Shown here in pieces: positions 1 through 17,901 of a stretch of DNA of 21,533 nt (position 1 is its first letter; each line of letters opens with the position of its first letter). The notes below the pieces were generated by a model. It was not told the DNA's origin. It ran no database searches and saw nothing but the letters and a program-made list of their open reading frames with translations. Made by a program: the position numbers and the translations under genes. Origin of the DNA: a virus; IMG/VR virus record IMGVR_UViG_3300042876_001141, positions 1 to 21,533 of that record; one strand, given 5' to 3'.

Positions 1-143
1 CGGCGGTATGCGGAGATCGTGAGCGGTGCCCGCCCTTCGGCGACGAGCCGGGTCGTGAAGGCCTCGACCGCGTCGCCGAAGGGGTCGGCCGCCGGCTCAG
101 GAACGAGCCGCAGCGCGGGGCTTCTTTGCGCGGGGAGCGGCAT
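1..143 (-). CDS. Tyrosine recombinase/integrase, N-terminal fragment (runs off the left edge)
   Basis: The minus strand is open from an ATG at 143 to the window edge (about 47 codons). After a short leader the product reads DPFGDAVEAF, then RLVAEGRAPLTISAYR. A helix, then a glycine and a T-x-x-x-Y motif, is the classic opening of the SAM-like core-binding domain of tyrosine recombinases, where integrases usually read 'L...G.s..Ti..Y..dl'. The catalytic domain (R-H-R-Y) would lie outside the window, so catalysis cannot be judged. The start overlaps the end of the upstream gene (97-549) by 47 nt in another frame, and a GAGG sits about 6 nt upstream of the ATG. The position, divergent from the head genes, suits a prophage integrase. 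Family assignment rests on about 30 residues and is moderately sure. Confidence 0.55.
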   Translation of the reverse strand, partial: MPLPAQRSPALRLVPEPAADPFGDAVEAFTTRLVAEGRAPLTISAYR

Positions 144-549
144 GGCTGGCCTCGGGGGAGGGAACGGCGCCGGCGGATTCGGAACCTTCTTCGGACTCCT
201 CGCCTCCCGCCCTGCTGTACCCCATGGGGAAATCCTTCGGGAGCGGAAGCGCCTCGACCTGGCCGGCATCCTTGGCCCAGACCAGGAACATCCGAAGCAC
301 CCGGACCGTCTTCTGGACCGTCCGCTCGGCGCGGGGCTTCCCCTCGGGGTTCTTGAGGAGGGCGTCGGACTTCACGAACTTCCCGATGCGTGCGGGCTGG
401 ATCGCCGAGAGCTTCGTGGTTTCGCCAAGGTAGCCGCAGACGACTTCGAGGTCCTTGCCGTAGGTGTAAACGGTCGCCGGCTTCTTGCCGAGGGTGCCCA
501 GGTGGGCGAGGTAGGCCTCCGAGGCCTGCTTCAGGGTGGGGTCGGGCAT
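97..549 (-). CDS. Stand-alone integrase SAM-like (core-binding) domain protein
   Basis: 150 residues. Residues about 5-105 resemble the N-terminal SAM-like/core-binding domain of phage integrases: TLKQASEAYLAHLGTLGKKP, then a T-x-x-x-Y turn, and later RTVQKTVRVLRMFLVWAKDA, which matches the helix that ends this domain. No catalytic Arg, His or Tyr domain follows. The protein instead ends in an Ala/Pro/Glu-rich, then basic, low-complexity tail (KKPRAAARS). The start at 549 is chosen over an upstream in-frame ATG (621) because AAAGGAG (555-561) lies 5 nt upstream of it and the earlier ATG would fall inside the predicted promoter. It may bind recombination-site DNA as a regulator or accessory factor, or be a decayed recombinase. 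That role is inference. Confidence 0.6.
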   Translation of the reverse strand: MPDPTLKQASEAYLAHLGTLGKKPATVYTYGKDLEVVCGYLGETTKLSAIQPARIGKFVKSDALLKNPEGKPRAERTVQKTVRVLRMFLVWAKDAGQVEALPLPKDFPMGYSRAGGEESEEGSESAGAVPSPEASHAAPRAKKPRAAARS

Positions 550-568
550 GGTGGCTCCTTTCGAATGG

Positions 569-585
569 CCTCGGAACATCCGAGG
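569..585. promoter_or_regulatory. Perfect inverted repeat in the leader of the 97-549 gene
   Basis: CCTCGGA-ACA-TCCGAGG: two perfect 7-bp arms around 3 nt. It lies between the predicted -10 box and the ribosome-binding site of the leftward gene. It could be a repressor operator or a hairpin in the 5' leader. Confidence 0.45.
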
Positions 586-591
586 CTCAGG

Positions 592-621
592 GATACACCC
601 TCCGATGCGGAGGGAAGTCAA
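592..621 (-). promoter_or_regulatory. Predicted sigma70-type promoter with palindromic spacer
   Basis: On the minus strand TTGACT (616-621) and TGTATC (592-597) are separated by 18 bp. The spacer holds a perfect 7-bp inverted repeat, CCCTCCG-N3-CGGAGGG (598-614). The start codon of the 97-549 gene is about 43 nt downstream. A palindrome centred between the -35 and -10 boxes is the usual place for a repressor operator, so this promoter may be repressed in the lysogenic state. The repressor is not in the window. Confidence 0.5.
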
Positions 622-655
622 CGGGATTCGAGGGAAGAGGGCATTGGGGCGCCGG

Positions 656-673
656 GCGTTGTCACTGGGAGCG
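656..673 (-). repeat. Copy of the TCCCAGTG repeat, inverted relative to the 1881-2013 group
   Basis: Read on the minus strand this gives CGCTCCCAGTGACAACGC. It differs at only two positions from the copy at about 1996-2013 (CGTTCCCAGTGGCAACGC). It lies in the gap between two leftward genes. Confidence 0.5.
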
Positions 674-735
674 AGACGGGGTTGTTCGGGGCGTTGTCCA
701 TAGGGCGGCTCACCTGGCGCGTCTTCGATCTCGGC

Positions 736-975
736 TCAGGCCTCGGGCCGTCCGAACTGCCTCTCGAGTCCCGCGCGAACGGCCAGTCGCATCCGGGCCT
801 CGGTCTCCGCTTTGGCCCGGTCGGTGAAAAGCGTCGGCCGGCGCTCGGTCGTCCAGCCGCCGCGGAACTGAAGGAGCAGGCCGGCGAGCGAGGTCTCCCA
901 GCAGATGTCGGCGAGCACGCTGTCGGGCCCGGGGTCTTCGACGATCCAGAAGGGGGAGGTGGTTTCGATTCGCAT
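736..975 (-). CDS. Small hypothetical protein in the recombinase-like cluster
   Basis: 79 residues, in the 186-555 bp zone between the two SAM-like genes. It starts 15 nt after the stop of the 991-1434 gene. The sequence has an ordinary globular composition (ETTSPFWIVEDPGPDS, then CWETSLAGLLLQFRGGW, then a charged C-terminal helix with ARMRLAVRAGLERQF), which argues for a real gene rather than a frame shadow. No clear ribosome-binding site precedes the ATG, so it may be translated by coupling to the upstream gene. I do not recognise the family. The upstream gene, on the same strand and just ahead, suggests a shared transcript. Confidence 0.5.
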   Translation of the reverse strand: MRIETTSPFWIVEDPGPDSVLADICWETSLAGLLLQFRGGWTTERRPTLFTDRAKAETEARMRLAVRAGLERQFGRPEA

Positions 976-990
976 GGGGAGGGGCCGCGC

Positions 991-1434
991 TCAGGCCGCG
1001 ACCTGCCGGGCCTTGCGCGGGGCGGGGGCGGGAATCCGCACACACTTGAGCATCTGGGTCGGCCAGGAAACCTCTTCGATGAGGCCGGTCTGCCGGGCGA
1101 AGACCAGGAGCGCGCGGAGAACCAGCATGATTCTCTTGGCCTGGTCGAGGGGGCGGAACCGCCCGCTCTTTCCCGGCTGAATCAGCTCGCTCGAGAACGA
1201 GAATTCCTGGACGTCGCGCCAGTAGAACTCCGCGATGTTCGAAGCGAACTCGAAGTACTCGAGGATGACGCGGGCGTCGTACCGGAAGGTCCGAAGCGTC
1301 CAGCTGCTCTCGCCGAACGGGGCTTTGCCCGTGGCCCGGAACCTCGCCTCGTACTCGCGGGCCAGCTCGGCCAGGCTCGCGGTTCGGGGGGCGGCCTTGC
1401 GGGTGCGGCTGGTGTTCTTCTGGGTGGTGGTCAT
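991..1434 (-). CDS. Second stand-alone integrase SAM-like domain protein
   Basis: 147 residues. After a basic Thr/Arg-rich start it shows the same plan as the 97-549 product: SLAELAREYEARFRATGKAP, then WTLRTFRYDARVILEYF, and the closing helix LDQAKRIMLVLRALLVFARQ. The positions LxxLRxxLxFARxxGxIE align with LRMFLVWAKDAGQVE in the other protein, so the two look like divergent paralogs. No catalytic domain is present. The start at 1434 is favoured by AAGGAGA (1441-1447) 6 nt upstream. A longer in-frame extension exists but has no such signal. Likely role is DNA binding at recombination or regulatory sites (inference). Alternatives are an excisionase-like regulator or a remnant. Confidence 0.6.
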   Translation of the reverse strand: MTTTQKNTSRTRKAAPRTASLAELAREYEARFRATGKAPFGESSWTLRTFRYDARVILEYFEFASNIAEFYWRDVQEFSFSSELIQPGKSGRFRPLDQAKRIMLVLRALLVFARQTGLIEEVSWPTQMLKCVRIPAPAPRKARQVAA

Positions 1435-2048: not shown

Positions 2049-2334
2049 CGACCTTCGTCGCATCGCCGCCGAGGACCCCGAGATTGTCCGGGCCGCTGGC
2101 CGCGAGCTCATCGCCCTGGGTGAGCTCCTCGTCGCCGGCCGGATCGAGGAGGCGGTCCTCCGGATCGACGCCGCGCGCGCCACCTACCCCGAATGGGCCG
2201 CCCTCGACCAGGCGATCGCCAAGCTCGACGCCGCTGCGCGAGACGCCGACCGGACGGAAGCGAACCGCGAGGCGGCGCTCGGCGTTCTCGTGGCTGTTCT
2301 CCGGACCGCCCTCCGGGGAGCGGTGGGGCTCTGA
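2041..2334 (+). CDS. Small helical protein upstream of the terminase (small terminase candidate)
   Basis: 97 residues from a GTG at 2041, with GGGAGG (2029-2034) 6 nt upstream. It overlaps the previous stop by 8 nt, and its own stop overlaps the terminase ATG by one base (TGATG), so it is tightly coupled on both sides. The product is almost wholly alpha-helical and acidic (LRRIAAEDPEIVRAAGREL, then LDQAIAKLDAAARDADRTEA) with a hydrophobic C-terminal helix (ALGVLVAVLRTAL). The slot directly before the large terminase is normally that of the small terminase subunit, but I see no helix-turn-helix that would support this. It could equally be a lysis accessory or an unknown protein. Confidence 0.55.
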   Translation: MTDDLRRIAAEDPEIVRAAGRELIALGELLVAGRIEEAVLRIDAARATYPEWAALDQAIAKLDAAARDADRTEANREAALGVLVAVLRTALRGAVGL

Positions 2335-3857
2335 TGGCCGACCGCAGTCGCAACGCCCGGCTCGCCGAGACCCTGGCGAGCCCGGTCCTCTGGGGCCAGG
2401 CCTACCTCCGGAACCGAAATGGCGAGCCTCGGAGCTACTGGCCGCACCAGGTTGAGGACCTGCTGGCCGAGGAGCCCAACATCATCCATCTCGACGGAAG
2501 GGCTTCAGGAAAGTCGACCGACATTTCCACGCAGATCCTCCACTTCGCCTTCACGACCCGGGGAGGCCTCGGCCTGGTCGCGGCCCCCCACCAGGGGCAC
2601 CTCGACACGCTGATCGAGGAGATCGAGTTCCAACTCGACGCGAACCCTGACCTCTACGCCTCGATCGCGCTCACGAAGTACGGGAAGCCCAAGATCCACC
2701 GGAAGCCCTACTTCAGGCTCGAGTTCACCAACGGCTCGACCATCTACTTCCGGCCGGCCGGAGCCTACGGGGACGCCTTTCGATCGCTCCACGTCGAGCG
2801 GATCTGGGTCGACGAGGGAGCCTGGTTGACGGAACGATCCTGGAAGGCGCTCCGGCAATGCCTCAAGGCCGATGGCCGGCTCCGGATCTACTCGACGCCG
2901 AACGGACTCCGGGACACGACCTATTACCGGCTCACCCTCTCGCCGCAGTTCCGGGTCTTTCGCTGGCCGAGCTGGCTGAACCCCACCTGGTCAGACGAAC
3001 GGGAGGCCCAGCTCGTCGAGTTCTACGGCGGGAAGGAGACCGCCGGCTGGCAGCACGAGGTCGCCGGTGAGCACGGGAAGCCGAGCTACGGGGCCTTCAA
3101 CATCGAGCACCTGAACCTCTGCCGGCAGGAGGTCCTCGAGTATCAGAAGGTCGAGATCACCGGCGAGGAGCTGAAGGACTGCGACTCCGAAGACGCCTCG
3201 ACCGAGCGGCTCGAGATGCTCATGAACCTGATGCCGCAGACCGGCGTCTATTGGGTTGGTGGGGATCTCGGCTATACGAATGACCCGACCGAGCTGGTGG
3301 TCTTCCGCGAGGTCGAGGTCGCCGAGCGGCCGGTCCTCCGGATGGTCCTGCGGGTCCACATGGAGCACGTCGCCTACCCGCACGTCGCTCAGGCGATCGC
3401 GCTCCTCGAGCGGATGTACACGCCGGTGGGGATCGGCGTCGACAACGGCGGGAACGGGATGGCGGTCGTTCAGGACCTCCTGACCCTCGATCGGTTCAAG
3501 CCGCTGGGGCTCGACGGCCGGCTCAAGGGGTTCGACTTCGGAGGGATGACGACCCTGGCGGTCCGCGACGGCAAAGAGGTCAAGAAGCGGACGAAGGAGC
3601 TGATGACCAGCCTGATCAACGGGGCGCTCCAGCGACGCGCGATCGTCCTGCCGATCGATGACTCGGAGATCGAGGACCAATTCACGACCCAGACCTACAC
3701 GCTGAACGGCGGGAACGTCGTCTACTCGAAGGGGAACGACCACATCATCGACGCGGTGCGGTGCGCGATGCTGGCCAGGGAGCAGGGAGCGCTGGACCAG
3801 GCGAGGGAGGAGAGCGTGAGCCTGGTGCCGCTGGTCACGGAGCCGGTGTTCGTGTGA
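2334..3857 (+). CDS. terL: Phage terminase large subunit (packaging ATPase-nuclease)
   Basis: 507 residues, a normal length. This motor pumps DNA into the prohead and cuts it. The ATPase part shows the Walker A DGRASGKST (about 54-62), the Walker B RIWVDEG with D160-E161, and a coupling-type motif YSTPNG. The C-terminal RNase H-like nuclease shows D311 in GGDLGYTNDP, D370 in GIGVDNGGNG and D473 in HIIDAVR, which fit the three metal-binding acidic residues. The ATG at 2334 is set by the one-base overlap with the previous stop. The usual next gene, portal, is displaced by about 3.1 kb of cargo and repeats. Confidence 0.95.
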   Translation: MADRSRNARLAETLASPVLWGQAYLRNRNGEPRSYWPHQVEDLLAEEPNIIHLDGRASGKSTDISTQILHFAFTTRGGLGLVAAPHQGHLDTLIEEIEFQLDANPDLYASIALTKYGKPKIHRKPYFRLEFTNGSTIYFRPAGAYGDAFRSLHVERIWVDEGAWLTERSWKALRQCLKADGRLRIYSTPNGLRDTTYYRLTLSPQFRVFRWPSWLNPTWSDEREAQLVEFYGGKETAGWQHEVAGEHGKPSYGAFNIEHLNLCRQEVLEYQKVEITGEELKDCDSEDASTERLEMLMNLMPQTGVYWVGGDLGYTNDPTELVVFREVEVAERPVLRMVLRVHMEHVAYPHVAQAIALLERMYTPVGIGVDNGGNGMAVVQDLLTLDRFKPLGLDGRLKGFDFGGMTTLAVRDGKEVKKRTKELMTSLINGALQRRAIVLPIDDSEIEDQFTTQTYTLNGGNVVYSKGNDHIIDAVRCAMLAREQGALDQAREESVSLVPLVTEPVFV

Positions 3858-6387: not shown

Positions 6388-6865
6388 TGACCTCTCGGGT
6401 CATGTTCTCGGCCCGGGCTTGACCTCCCTGGTCATGCTCTTGGCATCCGGCATGACCTCCCAGGTCGTGCTGGTCGAGTCGGAGTCGTGCCGCCTTCTCC
6501 CCCCTGCGGTCCGGACTTGACCTCCCTGGTCATGCCCTCGGCATTCGGCATGACCTCCCAGGTCATGTTGGTCGAGTCGGAGTCGGGCCAACCTCTCTCG
6601 CGTGCGGTCCGGGATTTGACCTCCTTGGTCATGGCCTCGGCATTCGGCATGACCTCCCAGGTCACGTTGGTCGAGTCGGAGTCGTGCCACCTTCTCTCGC
6701 CTGCGGCCGGGACTTGACCTCCTTGGTCATGGCCTCGGCATTCGGCATGACCTCCCAGGTCATGTTGGTCGAGCCGGAGTCATGCCGCCTTCTCCCCCCT
6801 GCGATCCGGACTTGACCTCTCTGGTCATGCCCTCGGCATCCGGCATGACCTCCCAGGTCATGTCG
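6388..6865. repeat. Tandem array of about 98-bp units with eleven phased palindromes
   Basis: Five units start at 6418, 6516, 6615, 6713 and 6811 (98, 99, 98, 98 bp). Each has two inverted repeats TGACC-N5-GGTCA, the second usually TGACCTCCCAGGTCA, then a conserved TTGGTCGAGTCGGAGTC-type segment. Palindromes start at 6388, 6420, 6453, 6518, 6551, 6617, 6650, 6715, 6748, 6813 and 6846, so gaps alternate between about 33 and 65 bp. Only the 6453 copy has a mismatch in an arm. The last unit diverges after 6865. The frames that stay open across it on the minus strand are repeat artefacts. The phasing suggests an array of dimeric protein-binding sites, such as a partition, replication or packaging site. 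A structured RNA is the alternative. Confidence 0.85.
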
Positions 6866-6969: not shown

Positions 6970-8601
6970 ATGAGCCGACGACGAGCACGATTCAGCCGAA
7001 CCGCCCTTTCTCCTGCAGCCGACCCGGGCCCCGGCCAGGGAGGTCCGCTCCAGGCGTCTGCAGTGGTCATCCCCCCGCTGGCCTCGGCGGCCGCCCTCGA
7101 CCCGTCGGCTTTCTCGAAGGTCGCCGCGACCGAGGCGATCCCGAAGACCTGGGAGGAGCGGGCCCGGAAGGCCTGGGACTACTACGTCGAGGAACCACTC
7201 GTGAAGAACTGCGTGAACTCCTGGCGGACCTTCGCGGTGGGGGACGAGATCGGGTTCGCCAGCGACGACGAGGCGTTCCAGGCCGAAGTCGAGGCGCTCG
7301 CCGGCCGGCTCGGCATCTCGATTTTCGTGAAGGACATGGTCCTCCAGCTCCTCGTCAAGGGAGACGCGGTCGGCTTCAAGCGGTACACGACGGACGCCCG
7401 GGACCTCGAGGAGGTCGTCTGCGTCAACCCGGTCTCGGTGAAGGTGAAGTACGCCGAGGGGGAGCTGGTCGAGGTGACGCAGACGAAGGACGAGACTCCG
7501 GGAGCCGATCCGCTGGATCTTCCGGTCGAGCAGGTCCTCCACCTGAAATGGGACGCGCCGGCCTTCTCGCCCCGGGGGAACTCGCTGGTTCTTCCGGCGT
7601 TCCAGTCGATCGAGCTGCTCCGGGACTACCGACGCGCCGAGCAGGCGATCGCGAGACGCTGGGCGACGCCGTTCCGGCTGCTCAAGGTCGGCGGGGCCTA
7701 CGGCCCCAAGATCGTGATGCCCGACCAGCGGATGCTCGAGCAGGTCCGCGACATGGTCAACAAGATGGACCTGAAGAGCGGCCTGGTCGTGCCCTTCTAC
7801 GTGACGGTCGAGACCCACGGGACCGACGGGCAGGTGCTCAACGTCGAGGACAAGGTGAAGGAGGTCAAGGAGGACATCGTCGTCGCGCTTGGCCTCTCGC
7901 GGTCGCTGGTGACGGGGGACGGCCCCAACTTCGCGACGGCTTCGGTCTCGCTCCAGAAGATGCTGGTGATGGTCCGCGAGATCAAGCACGCTGCGCGTCG
8001 AATCCTCGACTGGGTATTCGACGACTGGCGAAAGCTCCGGGGCCATGGCGACAAGGCGGTCCAATACCTGTTCAACGACCTCGACCCATCGGACGCGGTC
8101 GAGGTCCGCCGGCTCCTCATCGATCTGTACGACCGGAAGCTGATCAGCCGGTCGAGCCTCCAGCTCAAGATGGACCTCGATCCGGACGTCGAGGCTGCGA
8201 ACCGGGAGAACGAGCGGCGCTCGGTCGACATATTCGACGAGAAGCAGGTGAAGCCGATCGTCGACCTGGTGACGGCGACGGTCCTGCCGGTCGAGGCGGC
8301 TCAGGAGCTTCTCGGGATCGAAGCGAAGCCGGCGATCGAGCAGGGGCTCCCGCCGGAGACGGCCCTCGCCGGCCGGGCGGATCTGGCCGGGGAGATCTGC
8401 GATGGCTGCGCGCATTTCGACGAGGCGGAAAACGCCTGCCGGGTCCTTCGGGAAGAGCGGGCATTCGATGCGGCGGCCTGTCGGTTCTTCGAGGGGAGGC
8501 TACCGGTCGGAGCGTCGCTCCGGGGGTCCGAGCTTCCCGCGACATCGCCCGGTGTGCCGGCGCCGGAGCGACAGCCGGGCTGCCCCGGCTGCTCGAAGTG
8601 A
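6970..8601 (+). CDS. Phage portal protein
   Basis: 543 residues from the ATG at 6970. A GTG at 6934 would add 12. The portal forms the ring at the unique capsid vertex through which DNA passes and where the tail attaches. The sequence has the typical order of such proteins: an N-terminal region with TWEERARKAWDYYVEEPLV, a beta-rich part with NPVSVKVKYAEGELVE, then HLKWDAPAFSPRGNSLVLPA, and the long helical stem with VALGLSRSLVTGDGPNFATA and LSPxxAxEVRRLLxDL-like segments. The C-terminus adds C477, C480, C490 and C504 (C-x2-C-x9-C-x13-C), plus a final CPGC at 538-541, which is not usual in portals and may bind a metal. The stop overlaps the next GTG (GTGA). The ribosome-binding site is weak. 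Confidence 0.9.
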   Translation: MSRRRARFSRTALSPAADPGPGQGGPLQASAVVIPPLASAAALDPSAFSKVAATEAIPKTWEERARKAWDYYVEEPLVKNCVNSWRTFAVGDEIGFASDDEAFQAEVEALAGRLGISIFVKDMVLQLLVKGDAVGFKRYTTDARDLEEVVCVNPVSVKVKYAEGELVEVTQTKDETPGADPLDLPVEQVLHLKWDAPAFSPRGNSLVLPAFQSIELLRDYRRAEQAIARRWATPFRLLKVGGAYGPKIVMPDQRMLEQVRDMVNKMDLKSGLVVPFYVTVETHGTDGQVLNVEDKVKEVKEDIVVALGLSRSLVTGDGPNFATASVSLQKMLVMVREIKHAARRILDWVFDDWRKLRGHGDKAVQYLFNDLDPSDAVEVRRLLIDLYDRKLISRSSLQLKMDLDPDVEAANRENERRSVDIFDEKQVKPIVDLVTATVLPVEAAQELLGIEAKPAIEQGLPPETALAGRADLAGEICDGCAHFDEAENACRVLREERAFDAAACRFFEGRLPVGASLRGSELPATSPGVPAPERQPGCPGCSK

Positions 8602-11600
8602 TCGAGGCAGCCGCCGCCAAGAAGCCGCTCACCCAGGCGGAGCGGATCCGGCTCGCGGCGGAGAAGTCGGTTCGGGCGCGGAACCTCTACTCGGCCCAGG
8701 TCGCCGCCGATCTGACCGTCTCGCTCGGGAAGGCCTCGAAGCTCGTCAGGTCGTCGATCCTCGACTTCAAGAGCCCGGGGGGAGTCCCCGCGGGGAAGCT
8801 CCCGGCGCTTCGGGGGCTCGAGAAGCTCCAGGCCGAGATCCGGGAGATCCTGGCGGCCCTCAAGGCCGAGCAGACCCTCCGGTTCCGGAAGGCGGGGAAG
8901 GAGGCGTTCCGGAAGGGGATCTACGCGGGCATCGGGGACTTCGCCGAGGCGCAGCTCCCGTTCTACCGGGACCTCACCTCCGACGGGATCGAGAAGCTCG
9001 CGACCCGGGCCTTCACGGTCGTCGACACGTCGGCGCTCGATTTCCTGACGAACTACAACCTGGTCCTGCTGGGCGACGTCCACCGGGAGCTGGCCGATGG
9101 GATCAAGCGGACGATCCTGACCGGGATTGCGACGGGGAAGGGGGCGGACGACCTGGTTCGGGATCTCGGCCAGGTCATCAAGGACCCGGAGTCGTTCCGG
9201 CACGCGGGATCGAAGGTCTTCTCGAAAGCCCAGTACCGGATGGAGACGATCGCCCGGACGGAAACGCTTCGGGCCCACAACCAGGGGCAGCGGAAGTTCT
9301 ACCGGCTCGTCGGCGTCGAATCGCTCGAGTGGCTGACGGCGGAGGACGAGCGGGTCTGCCCGGTGTGCGGTCCGCTCGACGGAAAGGTATTCCCCGAGGC
9401 GAAGTTTCCGGCGCAGCCGTCCCATCCGAATTGCCGATGCGGGTCGGTCGTAGCTGAACCTCTCGTGGTCTGCGGCGCGAATCTGAAAGCCGTTGCAGAC
9501 GAGGAGGGGATCTCCGGAGCGGGCTGCCTCCTTCCTCCGCAGGCCATCGAGAAACAGGCAGCCGCGGCCGCGGCGGAAGCGAAAGCCCTCAAGGCCGCTT
9601 TCGAGAGCGGGCAGCCCAGCCAGCTCTCCGGGCTGACCGTCAAGCAGCTCCAGACCCTCGCGAAGCAGAACGGCGTCTCGGTCGCTCGCACGAAGGCCGA
9701 CCACCTGAAGCTCCTGGATCTCGCCGAGCCGGGGGTGGACCACACGGGCCTCGGTGGCGACGCCCTCTCCGCGAAGCTGAAGTTCCACGGCATCGGTGCC
9801 CTCCGGACGAAGGAGGAGCTGGTCGCCTTGCTCGCGCAGAAGCAGGCGGCGCTCGTTCAGGCGCAGCAGATCGCGGCCCAGGTCGCGAAGGTCCCCGCCT
9901 CGGGAGGTCTCCACGACCTCACCGTCTCCGAGCTGCAGGAGATGGCGAAGGCGAAGGGGATTCCGATCAGCCTGACGAAGCAGGACGTGGTCGAGATGCT
10001 CGACGAGCTCGAGCCGGGGGTGGACCACTCGGGACTGACGGGAACGGCCCTCGCCGAAGCGAAGGCGAAGCTGGGACTGACGCCACTCAAGAACAAGAAA
10101 CAGCTGGCAGCCGCGCTCGAGAAGGTGGCCGGACACGACCTCGCCGAGGCGGCGAAGCAGGAGGCGGTGGAGGCCGCCGAGACGGCCGCGGTCAACGCCG
10201 CGAAGACCGCCCTCGAGGAGGCCAGCAGCGCCGTCGTCGTCCCCGCCTCGCCGCTCGGTTGGTCCGACTTCCTCGATTCGGTGAAGAAGGTCGAGTCGGC
10301 CATCGCCGGTGGCGGAAAGCTCCCCCAAGCCCTCCTCGAGAAACACGCGAAGGTCCTGACCCTGAAGACGAATCTGTTCTTCGATCAGATCGTCGGGAAG
10401 AACCTCTCCGAGCTGAAGGACATCGCGAAGCTCACCAAGGTCAAGCACTGGCAGTGGGCCTCGAAGGACGAGCTGATCACGCTGCTGACCAACACCAACC
10501 CCGCGAAGATCGACGCGGCGAAGGCCGCGATCGAAGCGAAACACACGGTCTGGTATGCGAAGTACGGGGGCGGGAAGAAGAAGGGGGCGGCCCCCGCGGC
10601 GGCGCCCAGTGTCGCGAAGCCGCCCGCTCCGCCCGCGCCAGCTCCGAGCCCGATGCCGGCGCCGCCGCCGGTCGTGGCCCCTCCAGCTCCGACTCCGGCG
10701 ATCGTTTCGCCGAAGGCCACCCCGGTCCCCTCGGTCCCGAAGGCCGCCCCCGCGGCCAATGCTCCGGCCCCGGTCTTCGCCCGCAAGGGCTCCGAGTTCG
10801 AGGCCGTCGACGATGCCTGGAAGGAGATCGGGAAACCCTCCCGGTTCAAGTTTCTCGAGGTCGCCAAGATCGAAGGGGCCCACCGGAAGGAGTTCTGGGT
10901 CGACGACGCCGGCGAGAAGTGGCTCTTCAAGCCCGTGTCGTCGACGTCCGAGGCATTCCGGGCGGCGGGAGACGAGGCCGCGTACCGAATCGGGCGCCTG
11001 ATCCACGGCGACGCCATCGAGGTGCGGGTCGTGTCGCTCGGTGGGAAGACCGGATCGATCCAGAAGTGGAAGACCAACCTCGCCGGCAAGTTCGACTTCC
11101 GGGACCTCGCCCCCGAGGAACTCTCCTTCGACGAGATCGCCCAGGTCCAGCGGGAGCACGTCATCGACTGGCTGATCTCGAACCACGACGCCCACCCGAA
11201 GCAATTCCTGCGGGGAACGAAGGGCGAGGTCTGGGGCATCGACAAGGGGCAGCTCTTCAAGTATTTCGGCTCGGACCGCCTCGATGTCGAGTATCACCCA
11301 AATGGGGTACACGGCGAGAAAGAGCCTTTCTATAACACGCTGTTTCGGGCGGCGAAGCAGGGGAAGGTCCAGTTCGACCCGGGCGCCACCCTGGCCGCGA
11401 TCCGCGAGGCCGAGAAGATCCCCGAGGCGGACTACCTCGCCATCCTGAAGCCCTACGCCGACGGCCGATTCGGGAAGAACGAAGCCGCGAAGCAGGCCTT
11501 CCTCGACCAGGCACTCGCACGAAAGAAGAACCTTCGGCGGGACTTCGAGGATTTCTACTCGGGGATCCTCGGGAAGAAGGACTTTCGCTTCGAGGACGCG

Positions 11601-13313
11601 GCGAAGGCGGTGACGAAGAGTCGCCTCGGGCCCTCCGAGGAGGCGCTGCTCCACGACGTCGAGTCGCTCGGCTGGCAGGGGAAGGTCCTCCCGTTCGACG
11701 AGGGGGACGTCGAGGACCAGAACGCGCTCATCTGGGTGGAGACGGCCGGAGGGAAGCCCCGGACCGTCGTGAAGATGAAGCTCCGCCCCGAGGCGGAAGC
11801 GAAGCTCCTCAAGAAACTCGGGAAGGTGGCGCCGGAGACGAGCCTCCCAAAGGTCGGCGAGCCTCTGGCCGAGGACGAGTTCGCCAACACGATCCTGCTG
11901 GCGGTCAAGACCTGCCACACCCACAAGGAGGACGGCGCCTACAACGCAGTGAAACTGGCGGCGGCCCAGGGGCTTCGGCCGAAGCTCCTGGAGCTGGCGA
12001 AGGCCGTCGACCCGGACGTGAAGGCGATGGCCGAGGGGTACCTCGGCTGGCTCGACCGGATCGATGCGGCGGTTGCCGCGGAGGGCGTTCCCGAGGGGGG
12101 GAAGTTCGCGGCCTACCTCCGGAAGCACGCGCCCCCGAAGGCGAAAGAGAAGCCGGCCGACGTTCCGTTCGTCGTCAAGAAGACGAAGATCCGACATCCG
12201 AAGCGGACCATCGCGAAGGGACAGCTAACGGCCACCGACGAGCTGGCCGACAATTCGGCTCTCTTCAAGAGCTCGGCGGTCGAGGCAGGGGAGCAATTCG
12301 AAGTCGACCTGCCCGACGGGGGACGGATCGTCTACCGCCCCTGGTCCGAAAAGAACGCCTACGCCCAACGGGGAGAGCTCGAGCTCTACCTTCCTGGGAA
12401 GGTCGATCCGGATCGGCTCGATGCCGCAATGGGAGCCCTGGGCGACCTCGGCATCAGCTCGCGCGTCGCCGATCCGATCGATGCCGAGCTGCTCTACCTC
12501 CAGAAGCAGGCCTATCTCACCAAGGCGCATCTCGACTCGGACTACCAGGACCTCGTGGCCAAGCTCGACAAAGACGGGGCAAGCCGCGACGAGCGGATCG
12601 CGGCGCTCCGGGCCTTCTGGGAGCAGCGGTTGGGTGTCCCGGACTTGACCAAGCTGCCGGGATACGCCCCACTCGGCGAGTACCAGCTCGCGTTCCAGGG
12701 CGGGAAGGGGGCCGCCGGCTACCGCCACCAGTACCGGTTCGACCTTTCGGACGACGATCTCGAAAAGAAGATGGCCGGCTACGCGCTGTTCCATCACGTG
12801 ACGAACGAAAGGGACCTGCCGTCCCTCGTCGACATCCTCCTCGAGCACAACGGGGCGTTCGTCTCGACGATCGAGAAGCTCCGGATCGGAGTGCCGGTCG
12901 GTGGGATGTCCCCCGAGGCCGATATGAACTCCGGCGGGGCGAGCTACTTCTTCACCCGGATCCAGAAGATCCCGGCCGGAAAGAAGGCGCCGAACATCGG
13001 CTTCTACTTCAAGAAACGGTTGCTTCGGCGGATGGACGCGATCTCCTACGCGCACGACCACTACGGCCGGGTGACGGACAACTTTGTGACCTCTCATCGC
13101 GGGAGCACGCCAGCCGACTGGAAGAAGTTCGCCGGCCTCGGGGGGAACGAGACGATCCTGAAGTACTCGGTCACCCTCCTGGACAACATCGAGACGATCG
13201 GCGTGAAGAATCTGGCCGATCGAAAGAAAGTGATTGAGATGTTCCACAAGAGAGGGATGGTGTCCCTACCCGATGGCCGGAAGGTCGAGGACATCGTGGT
13301 GGTGGCGGACTAG
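8598..13313 (+). CDS. Giant MuF-type minor head protein with kinase-like and conserved C-terminal domains
   Basis: 1571 residues, from a GTG at 8598 that overlaps the portal stop. Residues about 110-285 are the MuF head-morphogenesis domain: ARTET (219-223), EW at 244-245, C254-x2-C257, LDGKVFP and H276-PNCRC. Residues about 343-640 hold three SAP/HeH-like short helical repeats (LTVKQLQTLAKQNGV, LTVSELQEMAKAKGI, LSELKDIAKL). A Pro/Ala linker spans about 665-732. Residues about 735-990 resemble HipA/PI-kinase-like enzymes: K778 in WLFKP, SNHDAHPKQFL (N862, D864, H866) and GIDKGQLF (D882). The last 180 residues carry HHVTNERDLPSLV, GGASYFFTR and NETILKYSV, reminiscent of ADP-ribosyltransferase folds. 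That last reading is tentative. MuF proteins sit inside the head near the portal, so the enzyme parts may be injected with DNA. Confidence 0.85.
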   Translation: MIEAAAAKKPLTQAERIRLAAEKSVRARNLYSAQVAADLTVSLGKASKLVRSSILDFKSPGGVPAGKLPALRGLEKLQAEIREILAALKAEQTLRFRKAGKEAFRKGIYAGIGDFAEAQLPFYRDLTSDGIEKLATRAFTVVDTSALDFLTNYNLVLLGDVHRELADGIKRTILTGIATGKGADDLVRDLGQVIKDPESFRHAGSKVFSKAQYRMETIARTETLRAHNQGQRKFYRLVGVESLEWLTAEDERVCPVCGPLDGKVFPEAKFPAQPSHPNCRCGSVVAEPLVVCGANLKAVADEEGISGAGCLLPPQAIEKQAAAAAAEAKALKAAFESGQPSQLSGLTVKQLQTLAKQNGVSVARTKADHLKLLDLAEPGVDHTGLGGDALSAKLKFHGIGALRTKEELVALLAQKQAALVQAQQIAAQVAKVPASGGLHDLTVSELQEMAKAKGIPISLTKQDVVEMLDELEPGVDHSGLTGTALAEAKAKLGLTPLKNKKQLAAALEKVAGHDLAEAAKQEAVEAAETAAVNAAKTALEEASSAVVVPASPLGWSDFLDSVKKVESAIAGGGKLPQALLEKHAKVLTLKTNLFFDQIVGKNLSELKDIAKLTKVKHWQWASKDELITLLTNTNPAKIDAAKAAIEAKHTVWYAKYGGGKKKGAAPAAAPSVAKPPAPPAPAPSPMPAPPPVVAPPAPTPAIVSPKATPVPSVPKAAPAANAPAPVFARKGSEFEAVDDAWKEIGKPSRFKFLEVAKIEGAHRKEFWVDDAGEKWLFKPVSSTSEAFRAAGDEAAYRIGRLIHGDAIEVRVVSLGGKTGSIQKWKTNLAGKFDFRDLAPEELSFDEIAQVQREHVIDWLISNHDAHPKQFLRGTKGEVWGIDKGQLFKYFGSDRLDVEYHPNGVHGEKEPFYNTLFRAAKQGKVQFDPGATLAAIREAEKIPEADYLAILKPYADGRFGKNEAAKQAFLDQALARKKNLRRDFEDFYSGILGKKDFRFEDAAKAVTKSRLGPSEEALLHDVESLGWQGKVLPFDEGDVEDQNALIWVETAGGKPRTVVKMKLRPEAEAKLLKKLGKVAPETSLPKVGEPLAEDEFANTILLAVKTCHTHKEDGAYNAVKLAAAQGLRPKLLELAKAVDPDVKAMAEGYLGWLDRIDAAVAAEGVPEGGKFAAYLRKHAPPKAKEKPADVPFVVKKTKIRHPKRTIAKGQLTATDELADNSALFKSSAVEAGEQFEVDLPDGGRIVYRPWSEKNAYAQRGELELYLPGKVDPDRLDAAMGALGDLGISSRVADPIDAELLYLQKQAYLTKAHLDSDYQDLVAKLDKDGASRDERIAALRAFWEQRLGVPDLTKLPGYAPLGEYQLAFQGGKGAAGYRHQYRFDLSDDDLEKKMAGYALFHHVTNERDLPSLVDILLEHNGAFVSTIEKLRIGVPVGGMSPEADMNSGGASYFFTRIQKIPAGKKAPNIGFYFKKRLLRRMDAISYAHDHYGRVTDNFVTSHRGSTPADWKKFAGLGGNETILKYSVTLLDNIETIGVKNLADRKKVIEMFHKRGMVSLPDGRKVEDIVVVAD

Positions 13314-15099: not shown

Positions 15100-17901
15100 A
15101 TGGAGACCTTCGCGACCGATCGAGACCGACTGGCGTTCCTCCTCGAGACCGAGGCGGAGCTGGCATTCGAGGCCTCGCTCCAGACGACCGGCGAGCTGGA
15201 GGCCGGACGGGAGACTCCCCGAGCTCCGTCCGCCGCTGCCGAGGCGCCTCCTGCCGACCGGCCGAAGTACGTCACGAACTACATCGGCTCGAAGCAGAAG
15301 CTGGTCGACTGGATCTGGAAGAACACCCCCGATGGGACCGCCTCGGCCCTGGACGCCTTCTCGGGGTCGGCGGTTGTCGCCTACATGTACAAAACGAAGG
15401 GGCTCCGGGTCGTGGCCAACGACCGTCTCCGGCTCTGCCACCACACCGCCCGGGCGATCGTCGAGAACAGCTCGGAGACCCTCTCACCCGAGGAGATCGA
15501 CGCTCTCCTGGCGGAGAACCCGAAGGCCGGGACCTTCGTGAGGGAGAACTTCGACGGGCTCTTCTTCGAGCCGGGGGTCCACGCGGTCATCGACCAGGTC
15601 CGGGCCAACATCGAGGCGCTCTCTTCCTTTAAGAAGGACATCGGCCTCTTCGTCCTGGCCAAGACCTGCATGTCGGGGGGCTTCGGACATTTCACCTCGA
15701 CCGGACCGAGCGGAAACCGGAAGGGGGGCCCGGACGAGTTCCGGGCCAAGCTCCGGTCGAACGCCGAGAAGATCAACGCGCTGATCTTCGACAACGGCGA
15801 GAAGTGCCTCGCCTTCCGCGAGGAAATTGCCGAGCTGCTCCCCAAGGTCAAGGTCGACCTGGCCTACTTCGACCCACCCTACGCGACCGAGTTCTCGACG
15901 ACGAACTACGAGAAGGCATACCACTTCGTCGAGGGGCTGATGACGAACTGGGAGGGGCTCTCGCTCATCCCGGGCTCCAAGACCCGCTCCTACGAGACCG
16001 ACCACCAGACGGTCACGAAGGGGAACGCCCGGACGTTCTTCGAGGGGTTCCTCTCCCAGGCGAAGCACATTCGGAGCTGGCTGATCTCCTACCGAGACAA
16101 GGCGTACCCGACCGACGAGGAGATGAAGGGGCTGATCACGTCCCAGGGGATGGAGCCCCGGCTCGAAACCCACGACCACCACTACATGGTCGGTGGGAGC
16201 CGGAGCGATTCCTCGGACGCGACGGAGTACCTGTTCGTGTGCCAGCGGGGAAAGGCCAAGCCGGAGGCCGCGGCCAAAGCCGAGGAAGCCAGAGCGAAAC
16301 GCCGGCCGATCCGGAGCCGCGGCGGAATCGGGCGCTGGGAGGAGACCCCCGACGCCATCGTCTACGTCCTGGAGGAAACGGACCAGTTCGCTCCCGAGTC
16401 CCTCGTCACCGAGGTGTTCGACGCCGCGACCGGGGTCCAGGTCGTCGTCGGCCGGCCACTCGATGAGCCGCCGGGAGAAACCGAGGATCCAGTTCTCCAG
16501 TCGATCGTCTTCCCGCTCTCGGAGGACTGGACGCTCGACCGAGCCAAGGAGTGGCTGGCCGAGAACGACCCGTTGGCGGTCGCGACCCGAAAGCCGAAGC
16601 GGGCCCATGCCACCGTCGAGCCGAAGGCCGCGAATCTCCACACCTCGTTTGCCGTCGACCTCGTCCTGCCCGGCGATCCGCTAGCAGCCCAGGCCTCGGC
16701 GGCGATGCTCCCCGGAGAGGACCCGAAGTTCACCTTCATCCTCTGCCGCGTCGGAACGAACCGGAATGGTGACCAGTTTCTCCCGGAGGAGCTGACGGCC
16801 CGCCACCCGACCGCGGTGAACAAGAAGATCGACCTGAAACATTCCCAGGATTTCACCGACATCGTCGGTGGGATCGCGGCCGCGGACTACATCGAGGACG
16901 AGGCGGGGGCCCGGGTCGAGTGCGTGGGGGAGCTCTACGTGCGGGACAGCGCGCACGCGCTGCTCGCTCACAAGCTGATCCGCAAGGGGATCATCAGCCA
17001 GGTCTCGATGGAGTGCGACTACGAGGAAGGGGAGTGCTCGGCCTGTGGCAAACGGGTGACCTCGAAGGCCGAGTATTGCCTGCACCTCAAGAAGTACAAG
17101 GGGACCGAGTTCCAGGGACAGATCGTCTCCGAGATTCTGCACGGCGTGACCTTTACGGGGGTGGGGCTCCTCGACCGGAAGGGCGCCGATGAGAACGCCC
17201 GGATCACGCAGGTCGCCGACGTCACGTCGGGGACCGCCGAGCCCATTTCCATTCGAAGCGAAGGAGAAGAACCGATGACCCAGCCGAACACCACTCCTCC
17301 CGAGACGCCCCCCTGTGCGGGCGCCGCAGCGCCGCCCTCCGACGCGGCGAAGAAGACCGTGCCCCCGGGAGGCGTACCCCCGGCGCAGACCCCTCCCGAC
17401 GGCGGTGGAGGGGATTCCGATCCCGCGGCGCGCGTGAAGCAGCTCGAGTCGGAGAACAAGCAGCTCCGTCAGAAGCTCCTCGATCTCCAGAAGCAGGTCG
17501 ACGAGCTGCTCGCCGCCCAGAAGACGGCGGCGAACCGCTCGCGCGCCGGGAAGCTCCTCAAGAGTCTCGAGCGAAGGGGACTCTTCGCGTTCGAGAACGA
17601 CGAGGAGCGGGAGCAGGAGCTGGGGCGCCTGGCCGGTCTCTCGGACGAGGCCTTCGCGGCGACGGAGGCGGCATTCCAGAAGATTCCGTCGAAGGACGCC
17701 GAGCCGAAGAAGCCCGAAGGGGACTCGGCTCCGGCCACGGCTGCCGCTTCGAAGACCCCGCCGCTTCGCGCCGCCGCGGCCGTCCGGCCGCACGACGTCG
17801 ACGACGCTGGCGAACCGACGCTCGAGGAGCAGCTCAAGAGCGGCCTGCTTGCGGCCTACCGCCAGCGCGTCGGCATGGAGGCGCCGGCGAACCCGAGCTG
17901 A
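15100..17901 (+). CDS. Fusion: Dam-type adenine methyltransferase - prohead protease - scaffold
   Basis: 933 residues, with GGGAGGGAA right before the ATG. Residues about 55-390 form a D12/Dam-class N6-adenine methyltransferase: NYIGSKQK (60-67), DAFSGS (85-90) and DPPY (258-261), in the X-I-IV order of the alpha class. Residues about 400-540 are a linker with a possible small domain. Residues about 541-707 look like a prohead protease: DLKHS (H581), GELYVRDS and QVSMECDY (S636), followed by C646-x2-C649-x10-C660-x-H662, a zinc-finger-like insert also known from T4 gp21-type proteases. The rest is Pro-rich, then a coiled coil (VKQLESENKQLRQKLLDLQK), as in scaffolds. One gene thus joins DNA modification to capsid maturation. 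An internal start (17275) can release the scaffold alone. Confidence 0.85.
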   Translation: METFATDRDRLAFLLETEAELAFEASLQTTGELEAGRETPRAPSAAAEAPPADRPKYVTNYIGSKQKLVDWIWKNTPDGTASALDAFSGSAVVAYMYKTKGLRVVANDRLRLCHHTARAIVENSSETLSPEEIDALLAENPKAGTFVRENFDGLFFEPGVHAVIDQVRANIEALSSFKKDIGLFVLAKTCMSGGFGHFTSTGPSGNRKGGPDEFRAKLRSNAEKINALIFDNGEKCLAFREEIAELLPKVKVDLAYFDPPYATEFSTTNYEKAYHFVEGLMTNWEGLSLIPGSKTRSYETDHQTVTKGNARTFFEGFLSQAKHIRSWLISYRDKAYPTDEEMKGLITSQGMEPRLETHDHHYMVGGSRSDSSDATEYLFVCQRGKAKPEAAAKAEEARAKRRPIRSRGGIGRWEETPDAIVYVLEETDQFAPESLVTEVFDAATGVQVVVGRPLDEPPGETEDPVLQSIVFPLSEDWTLDRAKEWLAENDPLAVATRKPKRAHATVEPKAANLHTSFAVDLVLPGDPLAAQASAAMLPGEDPKFTFILCRVGTNRNGDQFLPEELTARHPTAVNKKIDLKHSQDFTDIVGGIAAADYIEDEAGARVECVGELYVRDSAHALLAHKLIRKGIISQVSMECDYEEGECSACGKRVTSKAEYCLHLKKYKGTEFQGQIVSEILHGVTFTGVGLLDRKGADENARITQVADVTSGTAEPISIRSEGEEPMTQPNTTPPETPPCAGAAAPPSDAAKKTVPPGGVPPAQTPPDGGGGDSDPAARVKQLESENKQLRQKLLDLQKQVDELLAAQKTAANRSRAGKLLKSLERRGLFAFENDEEREQELGRLAGLSDEAFAATEAAFQKIPSKDAEPKKPEGDSAPATAAASKTPPLRAAAAVRPHDVDDAGEPTLEEQLKSGLLAAYRQRVGMEAPANPS
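17275..17901 (+). CDS. Nested in-frame scaffold protein (internal start)
   Basis: 208 residues from an ATG at 17275 in the same frame as the fusion gene, preceded by AAGGAG (17261-17266) with ideal 8-nt spacing. This is among the best ribosome-binding sites in the window. The product begins in a Pro/Ala-rich stretch just after the protease domain, then has a coiled coil (about residues 45-75) and ends with a helical tail (LEEQLKSGLLAAYRQRV) typical of scaffolding C-termini that contact the capsid protein. This mirrors lambda C/Nu3 and related phages, in which the scaffold is the C-terminal part of the protease gene made from its own start. Expression is inferred, not seen. Confidence 0.7.
   Translation: MTQPNTTPPETPPCAGAAAPPSDAAKKTVPPGGVPPAQTPPDGGGGDSDPAARVKQLESENKQLRQKLLDLQKQVDELLAAQKTAANRSRAGKLLKSLERRGLFAFENDEEREQELGRLAGLSDEAFAATEAAFQKIPSKDAEPKKPEGDSAPATAAASKTPPLRAAAAVRPHDVDDAGEPTLEEQLKSGLLAAYRQRVGMEAPANPS

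Follow-up and report, generated by a model that had tools for sequence, protein, structure and literature searches.

Free-standing core-binding domain genes beside an Xer-like recombinase in a phage family and their possible accessory role in site-specific recombination

Core-binding-only genes at the left edge of the window

Why would a phage encode the core-binding (CB) domain of a tyrosine recombinase as a protein of its own, twice, and next to what appears to be a recombinase gene? The question arises from the left end of the window, which is the whole stretch of DNA analysed here (21,533 bases; it is a complete virus record, and its left edge is the end of that record). An initial annotation had proposed that two genes, termed P1 and P2 here, hold only a SAM-like CB domain and that a third ORF at the left edge starts in the same way. 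Family matches and predicted folds of P1 and P2 bear out the first proposal. The second holds as well: the third ORF opens with an ATG at 145-143 and matches an integrase HMM (Table 1). This ATG falls inside P1, at its 3' end, and opens a frame shifted by +1 from that of P1, a layout that the relatives share.

Table 1. Features of the left part of the window, in window coordinates
Feature	Position	Strand	Description
Integrase (Xer-like tyrosine recombinase), predicted start	1..145	-	truncated by contig end; 23-bit match to integrase HMM
P1	97..549	-	150 aa; predicted free-standing CB (SAM-like) domain; gene 1 of the conserved P1-integrase pair
ORF between P2 and P1	736..975	-	79 aa; gene-typical codon-position GC
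P2	991..1434	-	147 aa; predicted second free-standing CB domain; ~20% identity to P1
TerL (terminase large subunit)	2334..3857	+	PHROG_2 E=5.8e-26; divergent neighbour; query for relatives

All four minus-strand ORFs show gene-like codon-position GC, with position 3 reaching 0.86 in P1 and 0.91 in P2 and position 2 being the lowest, as in the other genes of the window. Purine-rich ribosome-binding-like sequences precede both P1 and P2. PHROG and Pfam gave no family at a usable E-value for the 79-aa ORF. Elsewhere in the window, a 933-aa ORF (15100-17901, plus strand) begins with a D12-class adenine DNA methyltransferase domain (Pfam E 1.4e-19, residues 61-274), while its later part looks prohead-protease-like by eye, without a family match, so that it may be a fusion. 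A very long ORF (8544-13310, plus strand) encodes a Mu gpF-like head protein (Phage_Mu_F E 2.2e-13) with SAP/Rho_N-like stretches; further along, it has a segment that by eye resembles a HipA kinase. At ~6400-6750, a short intergenic sequence is present in several near-identical copies, visible as repeated peptides in spurious ORFs.

P1 matched the PHROG_1 integrase family with an E-value of 1.1e-7, the match being confined to the CB part, and Pfam Phage_int_SAM_1 with an E-value of 0.0016 and 19.1 bits, which is under the curated cut-off of 22.3. Its predicted structure (pLDDT ~95 over residues 1-105) aligned to the CB domain of 3nrw with a Z of 15.0 (1.9 Å over 101 residues) and to the CB domain of lambda integrase (1z1g), the comparison that the initial annotation had suggested, with a Z of 13.4. 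Foldseek alone returned a best E-value of 0.0041 for P1 and none below 0.001. P2 had no match in Pfam, PHROG or NCBIfam. When scored with an HMM of P1 relatives that was built without any window sequence, it reached 40 bits, compared with 8.3 for the best of 1000 shuffles. The P2 model (mean pLDDT 78.5) aligned to 3nrw and lambda integrase with Z of 12.3 and 12.1, respectively; because the underlying alignment included P1 relatives, this predicted fold is only partly independent. Both models show the four-helix SAM-like CB fold. Neither protein has a PF00589 match in Pfam, and both chains end after the CB domain. By its family matches and its model, P1 is a lone CB domain of the tyrosine recombinase type, and P2 appears to be a diverged second CB-only copy. 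With P2 alone as the query, viral contigs yielded no relatives, and a family-profile search of 46 records found P2 in the window only.

The P1 family and its recombinase

Relatives were collected in two sets, by a TerL scan (49 loci) and by a scan with the P1 alignment (51 loci). Of the 49 TerL loci, 36 carry a P1 homologue. Nine of the 13 loci without a full P1 have less than 0.5 kb upstream, L016 retains a truncated piece, and L040, L042 and L049 have room for the gene. Members of the family are mostly 115-150 aa long; that of L033 has at least 248 aa. No close relative of P1 turned up among phage and plasmid records, where the single plasmid match is an annotated integrase (24.8%). A small conserved ORF lies upstream of P1, between P1 and TerL, in L017, L027, L029 and L010.

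In the loci of the second set, a recombinase gene lies directly downstream of P1 and on the same strand in 51/51 cases, although L093 has a broken copy and several contigs end within the gene. As the initial annotation had remarked, these are CB domains that stand free beside a recombinase, and such an arrangement is unusual. P1 and the recombinase are on one strand in all 59 contig copies that hold both (two contigs count twice, each with two pairs). The recombinase frame opens ahead of the P1 stop in 58 of these copies and is offset by +1 from the P1 frame in 56; of the remaining three, L052 is broken and has P1 and integrase in one frame, while the contig end truncates L006 and L101. The recombinase start, together with an SD-like sequence, often lies inside the P1 tail. 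In L005 and similarly compact loci, there is no further gene between integrase and TerL apart from P1, which makes P1 the sole integrase-linked candidate for an accessory factor there.

The recombinases of the relatives matched both PF02899 (above its cut-off) and PF00589 (125-145 bits) in all four cases tested. They combine a CB with a catalytic domain in ~300 aa, as is characteristic of Xer-like simple tyrosine recombinases; the window itself holds the start only. The NCBIfam XerC model gave 204-219 bits for L078, L004 and L112 and 193 bits for L042, without reaching the cut-off of 335. Judged from these domain matches, the neighbouring recombinase is Xer-like and nearest to XerC/XerD, and it is not a XerC/D equivalog.

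We found that both genes of the pair bear the marks of constraint. The median dN/dS was 0.09 for P1 (137 pairs) and 0.098 for the integrase (134 pairs), and no value was 1 or higher. An earlier pass with a looser dS limit, in which the overlapping tail was kept, had given medians of 0.30 and 0.15, respectively, and we prefer the stricter one. Protein distances of P1 and of the recombinase are correlated with r=0.956 across 46 gene pairs. In a tree of CB domains, the P1 proteins are split from the integrase CB domains by a branch with 95/98 support; the long branches of P2 and of the L033 CB domain make the placement of P2 unsure. The integrases of L042 and L049, which lack P1, are placed among P1-bearing integrases, which suggests, in this unrooted tree, that P1 was lost there rather than gained late elsewhere. 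As far as sequence comparison goes, P1 is under purifying selection and is co-inherited with the recombinase. Since it is kept intact by selection, P1 is probably a working partner of the recombinase.

A dif-like core and a lone half-site between terS and terL

In most relatives, the recombinase is followed by a dif-like core, an inverted repeat whose 11-bp arms flank a 6-bp centre, and by one lone half-site beyond it. The core of L089, for example, reads ACTTCGCATAA-CACGTC-TTATCTGAACT. With the cores of the relatives, the dif sites listed in PMC2731167 share both the 11-6-11 form and the inner ATAA/TTAT, and 11-bp arms with a 6-bp centre are likewise described for dif in PMC5357621. The latter source also describes cer and psi, in which added accessory sequence accompanies the core, as here. 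In contrast to our locus, the accessory factors described there are unrelated host proteins (PepA, ArgR/ArcA), while P1 is a candidate derived from a recombinase.

From the right arm of the core to the lone half-site, the largest clade has 75 or 76 bp; L108, L109, L111, L112, L042 and L049 have 65 or 66 bp, and L097 and L100 have 96 bp. These spacings differ by about whole helical turns. In a test with dinucleotide shuffles (28 loci), the arrangement was matched by at most 2 of 100 shuffles in 16 loci and by 4 of 100 in two more, the other ten not being significant alone. The half-site sequence depends on the clade (TTATCnGAA, AAATGCGAC or GTATGCGATGA), and the layout is constant. Between core and lone half-site lies a conserved element, CACGCGTG in one group and GTAAGTC in others. 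In clades with a changed half-site, the putative recognition helices of both proteins are changed too, from KT to QI or QN in P1 and from HRxKA to DKVKTS or NKVKTS in the integrase. On the sequences, this joint change is one clade-level event and confounded with descent. The helix residues of P1 and of the integrase differ from each other in the loci tabled.

L042 and L049 retain core and lone half-site, so the site does not require P1, and a strict tie between the lone half-site and P1 was ruled out on this ground. The half-site lies within or at the 3' end of a gene that is TerS-like according to PHROG terminase small subunit matches (E 1.2e-5 in L003 and 0.0014 in L078), which places the module between terS and terL, in antisense orientation. 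Where at least 0.9 kb follows the integrase, the TerS-like gene is kept in every phage locus but L111, which has core and half-site and lacks the gene. In the L071-L088 group, additional TTATGYGC-type repeats occur ~90-200 bp past the integrase stop, and a 45-bp stretch between two of these repeats has been lost in L087.

Sequence exchanges suggest that the core recombines. In L064 and L104, an exchange of the integrase-side DNA reaches as far as the core itself, and L080 has an exchange junction near the core. One contig (IMGVR_UViG_3300028837_004134) consists of related phages joined in tandem, with cores ~50.4 kb apart that have an identical 6-bp centre; homology resumes at the core. The gap between recombinase and core holds a restriction-endonuclease-like gene in L080 and L086 and a toxin-antitoxin-like pair in L104 and L160, and it is also variable in L064 and L069, which marks it as a hotspot for cargo. 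A homology break 200 bp past the integrase in L080/L086 was considered as a prophage junction and rejected, as phage genes resume after the inserted nuclease-like gene. L160, in which the phage TerS-like gene and the core are followed by the toxin-antitoxin-like cargo up to the contig end, was checked for a junction as well and is a candidate at most. A core split by host DNA, or any host junction, was not found among the contigs examined; a terminal direct repeat indicating circularity was absent from 10/10 long contigs tested, and the plasmid partition protein ParA (AAA_31) from all 46 records. These results support neither a plasmid nor an integrated lifestyle.

What P1 may do, and its precedents

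Taken together, the linkage to the recombinase, the overlap of the two genes, their co-divergence, the selection on P1, its predicted CB fold and the spare half-site speak for an accessory role in recombination. On balance, we think it somewhat probable that P1 is a non-catalytic accessory subunit of phage site-specific recombination, with an architectural or directional function. P1 would bind DNA through its CB fold at the site of the recombinase, either at a half-site or at the conserved element between core and lone half-site; alternatively, it would bind the recombinase itself. In either case, it may help to build or steer the synaptic complex, and the P2 of the window would represent a second, diverged copy of this subunit. 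Recombination directionality factors are small proteins with a DNA-binding fold encoded beside int, and P1 resembles them in position, size and predicted fold. Phage recombinases usually rely for such functions on small helix-turn-helix proteins that are unrelated to them, or on proteins of the host.

CB-only genes that have no integrase next to them count against this reading. We found matches to the family in two of 386 genomes of the Vampirovibrionales phylum. In L054, from a metagenome-assembled genome, a P1-like gene lies beside a different TerL and has no adjacent integrase; its product scores 24.5 bits against Pfam Phage_int_SAM, above the cut-off of 22.3. L127, on a 2.2-Mb contig, has two CB-only genes that overlap by ATGA and are 40% identical; their neighbours (G389:C1:42000-58000) are methylase, ParB-like, TerS-like and TerL genes, and no integrase was found within the 16 kb examined around the pair. 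Tandem CB-only genes hence exist beyond the window, some of them without a neighbouring recombinase, which implies that some members act without a partner or are remnants. Both clusters lie near type I secretion-like genes and could represent a prophage remnant or a domesticated element.

A bolder form of the accessory reading is possible rather than probable, and we offer it tentatively. The phage enzyme would be a two-component tyrosine recombinase in which the detached CB domain fills the lone, catalysis-free half-site in trans, at a distance of whole helical turns from the core, and thereby determines synapsis or direction. P2 would contribute a further DNA specificity, and detached CB domains would form a general class of recombinase-derived DNA-architecture proteins. 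The last point draws on L127, where a tandem pair in a bacterial chromosome has no integrase next to it.

That P1 is instead a recombinase-derived transcription regulator, which binds operators and controls the int operon or lysogeny without any part in recombination, seems rather unlikely, yet this option of the initial annotation stays a rival. MrpR (YopR) of SPbeta is described in PMC10516654 as a phage repressor that has the tyrosine-recombinase fold and no recombinase activity, SroF of phi3T is a recombinase-fold phage regulator according to its structure title, and the P1 model aligns to both (Z 7.3 for MrpR, 8a0a, and 8.6 for SroF). The CB-only genes of L054 and L127, which lack a neighbouring integrase, point in the same direction. 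However, MrpR retains both domains of the recombinase fold, and MrpR and SroF align as whole-length chains of ~310-320 aa, whereas P1 consists of the CB domain only; it does not have the whole two-domain fold with lost catalytic residues that defines the MrpR type. In addition, a scan of 13 loci over the 420 bp ahead of P1 found no copy of the half-site with 10/11 or more matches, three of the loci having one with 9/11; this speaks against a P1 promoter that is autoregulated through half-sites. The strict linkage to the integrase and the co-divergence of the two suit a partner role better.

The suggestion that P1 serves as a decoy or inhibitor, which would occupy the half-sites of the recombinase and block the integrase, fared worse. 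P1 shares its fold with the CB domain of the integrase, and its gene immediately precedes and overlaps that of the integrase, as would suit such a function. Nevertheless, P1 and the integrase CB domains are split by a well-supported branch and differ in their helix residues in the loci tabled, so identical binding is not expected; we regard this option as unlikely.

It is very unlikely that inverted repeat and half-site are a pac or cos packaging site and hence uninformative on P1. The lone half-site is indeed in or at the 3' end of the TerS-like gene, but layout and sequence resemble the Xer dif sites listed in PMC2731167, the recombinase is XerC/XerD-like, and the exchanges up to or near the core in L064, L104 and L080 as well as the resumption of homology at the core in the tandem-phage contig argue for a recombination site.

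Fusion of P1 and integrase by a +1 ribosomal frameshift, which would yield a recombinase with two CB domains, appears hardly plausible. The frame relation in 56/59 copies and in the window is in line with it, as are the single frame of both genes in the broken L052 and the precedent of RitA, described in PMC8138268 with two CB domains in one chain. On the other hand, in many loci the +1 frame is closed by a stop codon a short way ahead of the integrase start, the ATG with its upstream SD-like sequence in the P1 tail suffices for independent initiation, and an overlapping start inherited from one ancestor would likewise have fixed the frame. A frameshift joining P1 to the catalytic domain, of the kind that the initial annotation had named as an objection, is not supported, although the constant frame relation would allow one.

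Least probable is that P1 and P2 are both decayed integrase copies: for P1, decay is ruled out by its conservation in 36/49 TerL loci, its purifying selection and the recombinase that follows it in 51/51 loci, while P2, confined to the window and highly diverged, may be such a copy, against which stand its intact frame, gene-like codon-position GC and predicted CB fold.

The closest precedents to P1 as an accessory subunit are MpsB of SGI1, which is the nearest in function, and RitA. MpsB is described as a small free-standing CB-like protein that is encoded directly beside its partner, the tyrosine-recombinase-like MpsA, both being needed (PMC6414798, PMC9299015); the role of MpsB is in conjugative mobilisation at oriT. 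According to these sources, MpsA is an atypical relaxase acting at oriT and is reported to lack a CB domain of its own. In contrast, the partner of P1 has its own CB domain (PF02899) and belongs to the ordinary Xer-like phage recombinases, accompanied by a dif-like site; P1, mostly 115-150 aa long, precedes its partner in the operon. In RitA, two CB domains likewise serve one catalytic domain, but both are part of one chain (PMC8138268), whereas P1 is a separate gene with the integrase in another frame in 56/59 copies. P1 differs from MpsB, RitA and MrpR each in a defining feature. With the search terms used, we found no description in the open-access literature of a gene for a free-standing CB domain that forms a pair with a complete phage integrase.

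If the accessory reading is true, making an accessory protein from the DNA-binding domain of the recombinase itself would be a simple natural route to a control subunit, here beside a recombinase that still has its own CB domain. With one small protein, one 300-aa recombinase and a ~115-bp site, the system is small and testable, and it would extend the functional precedent of the MpsB type to tailed phages.
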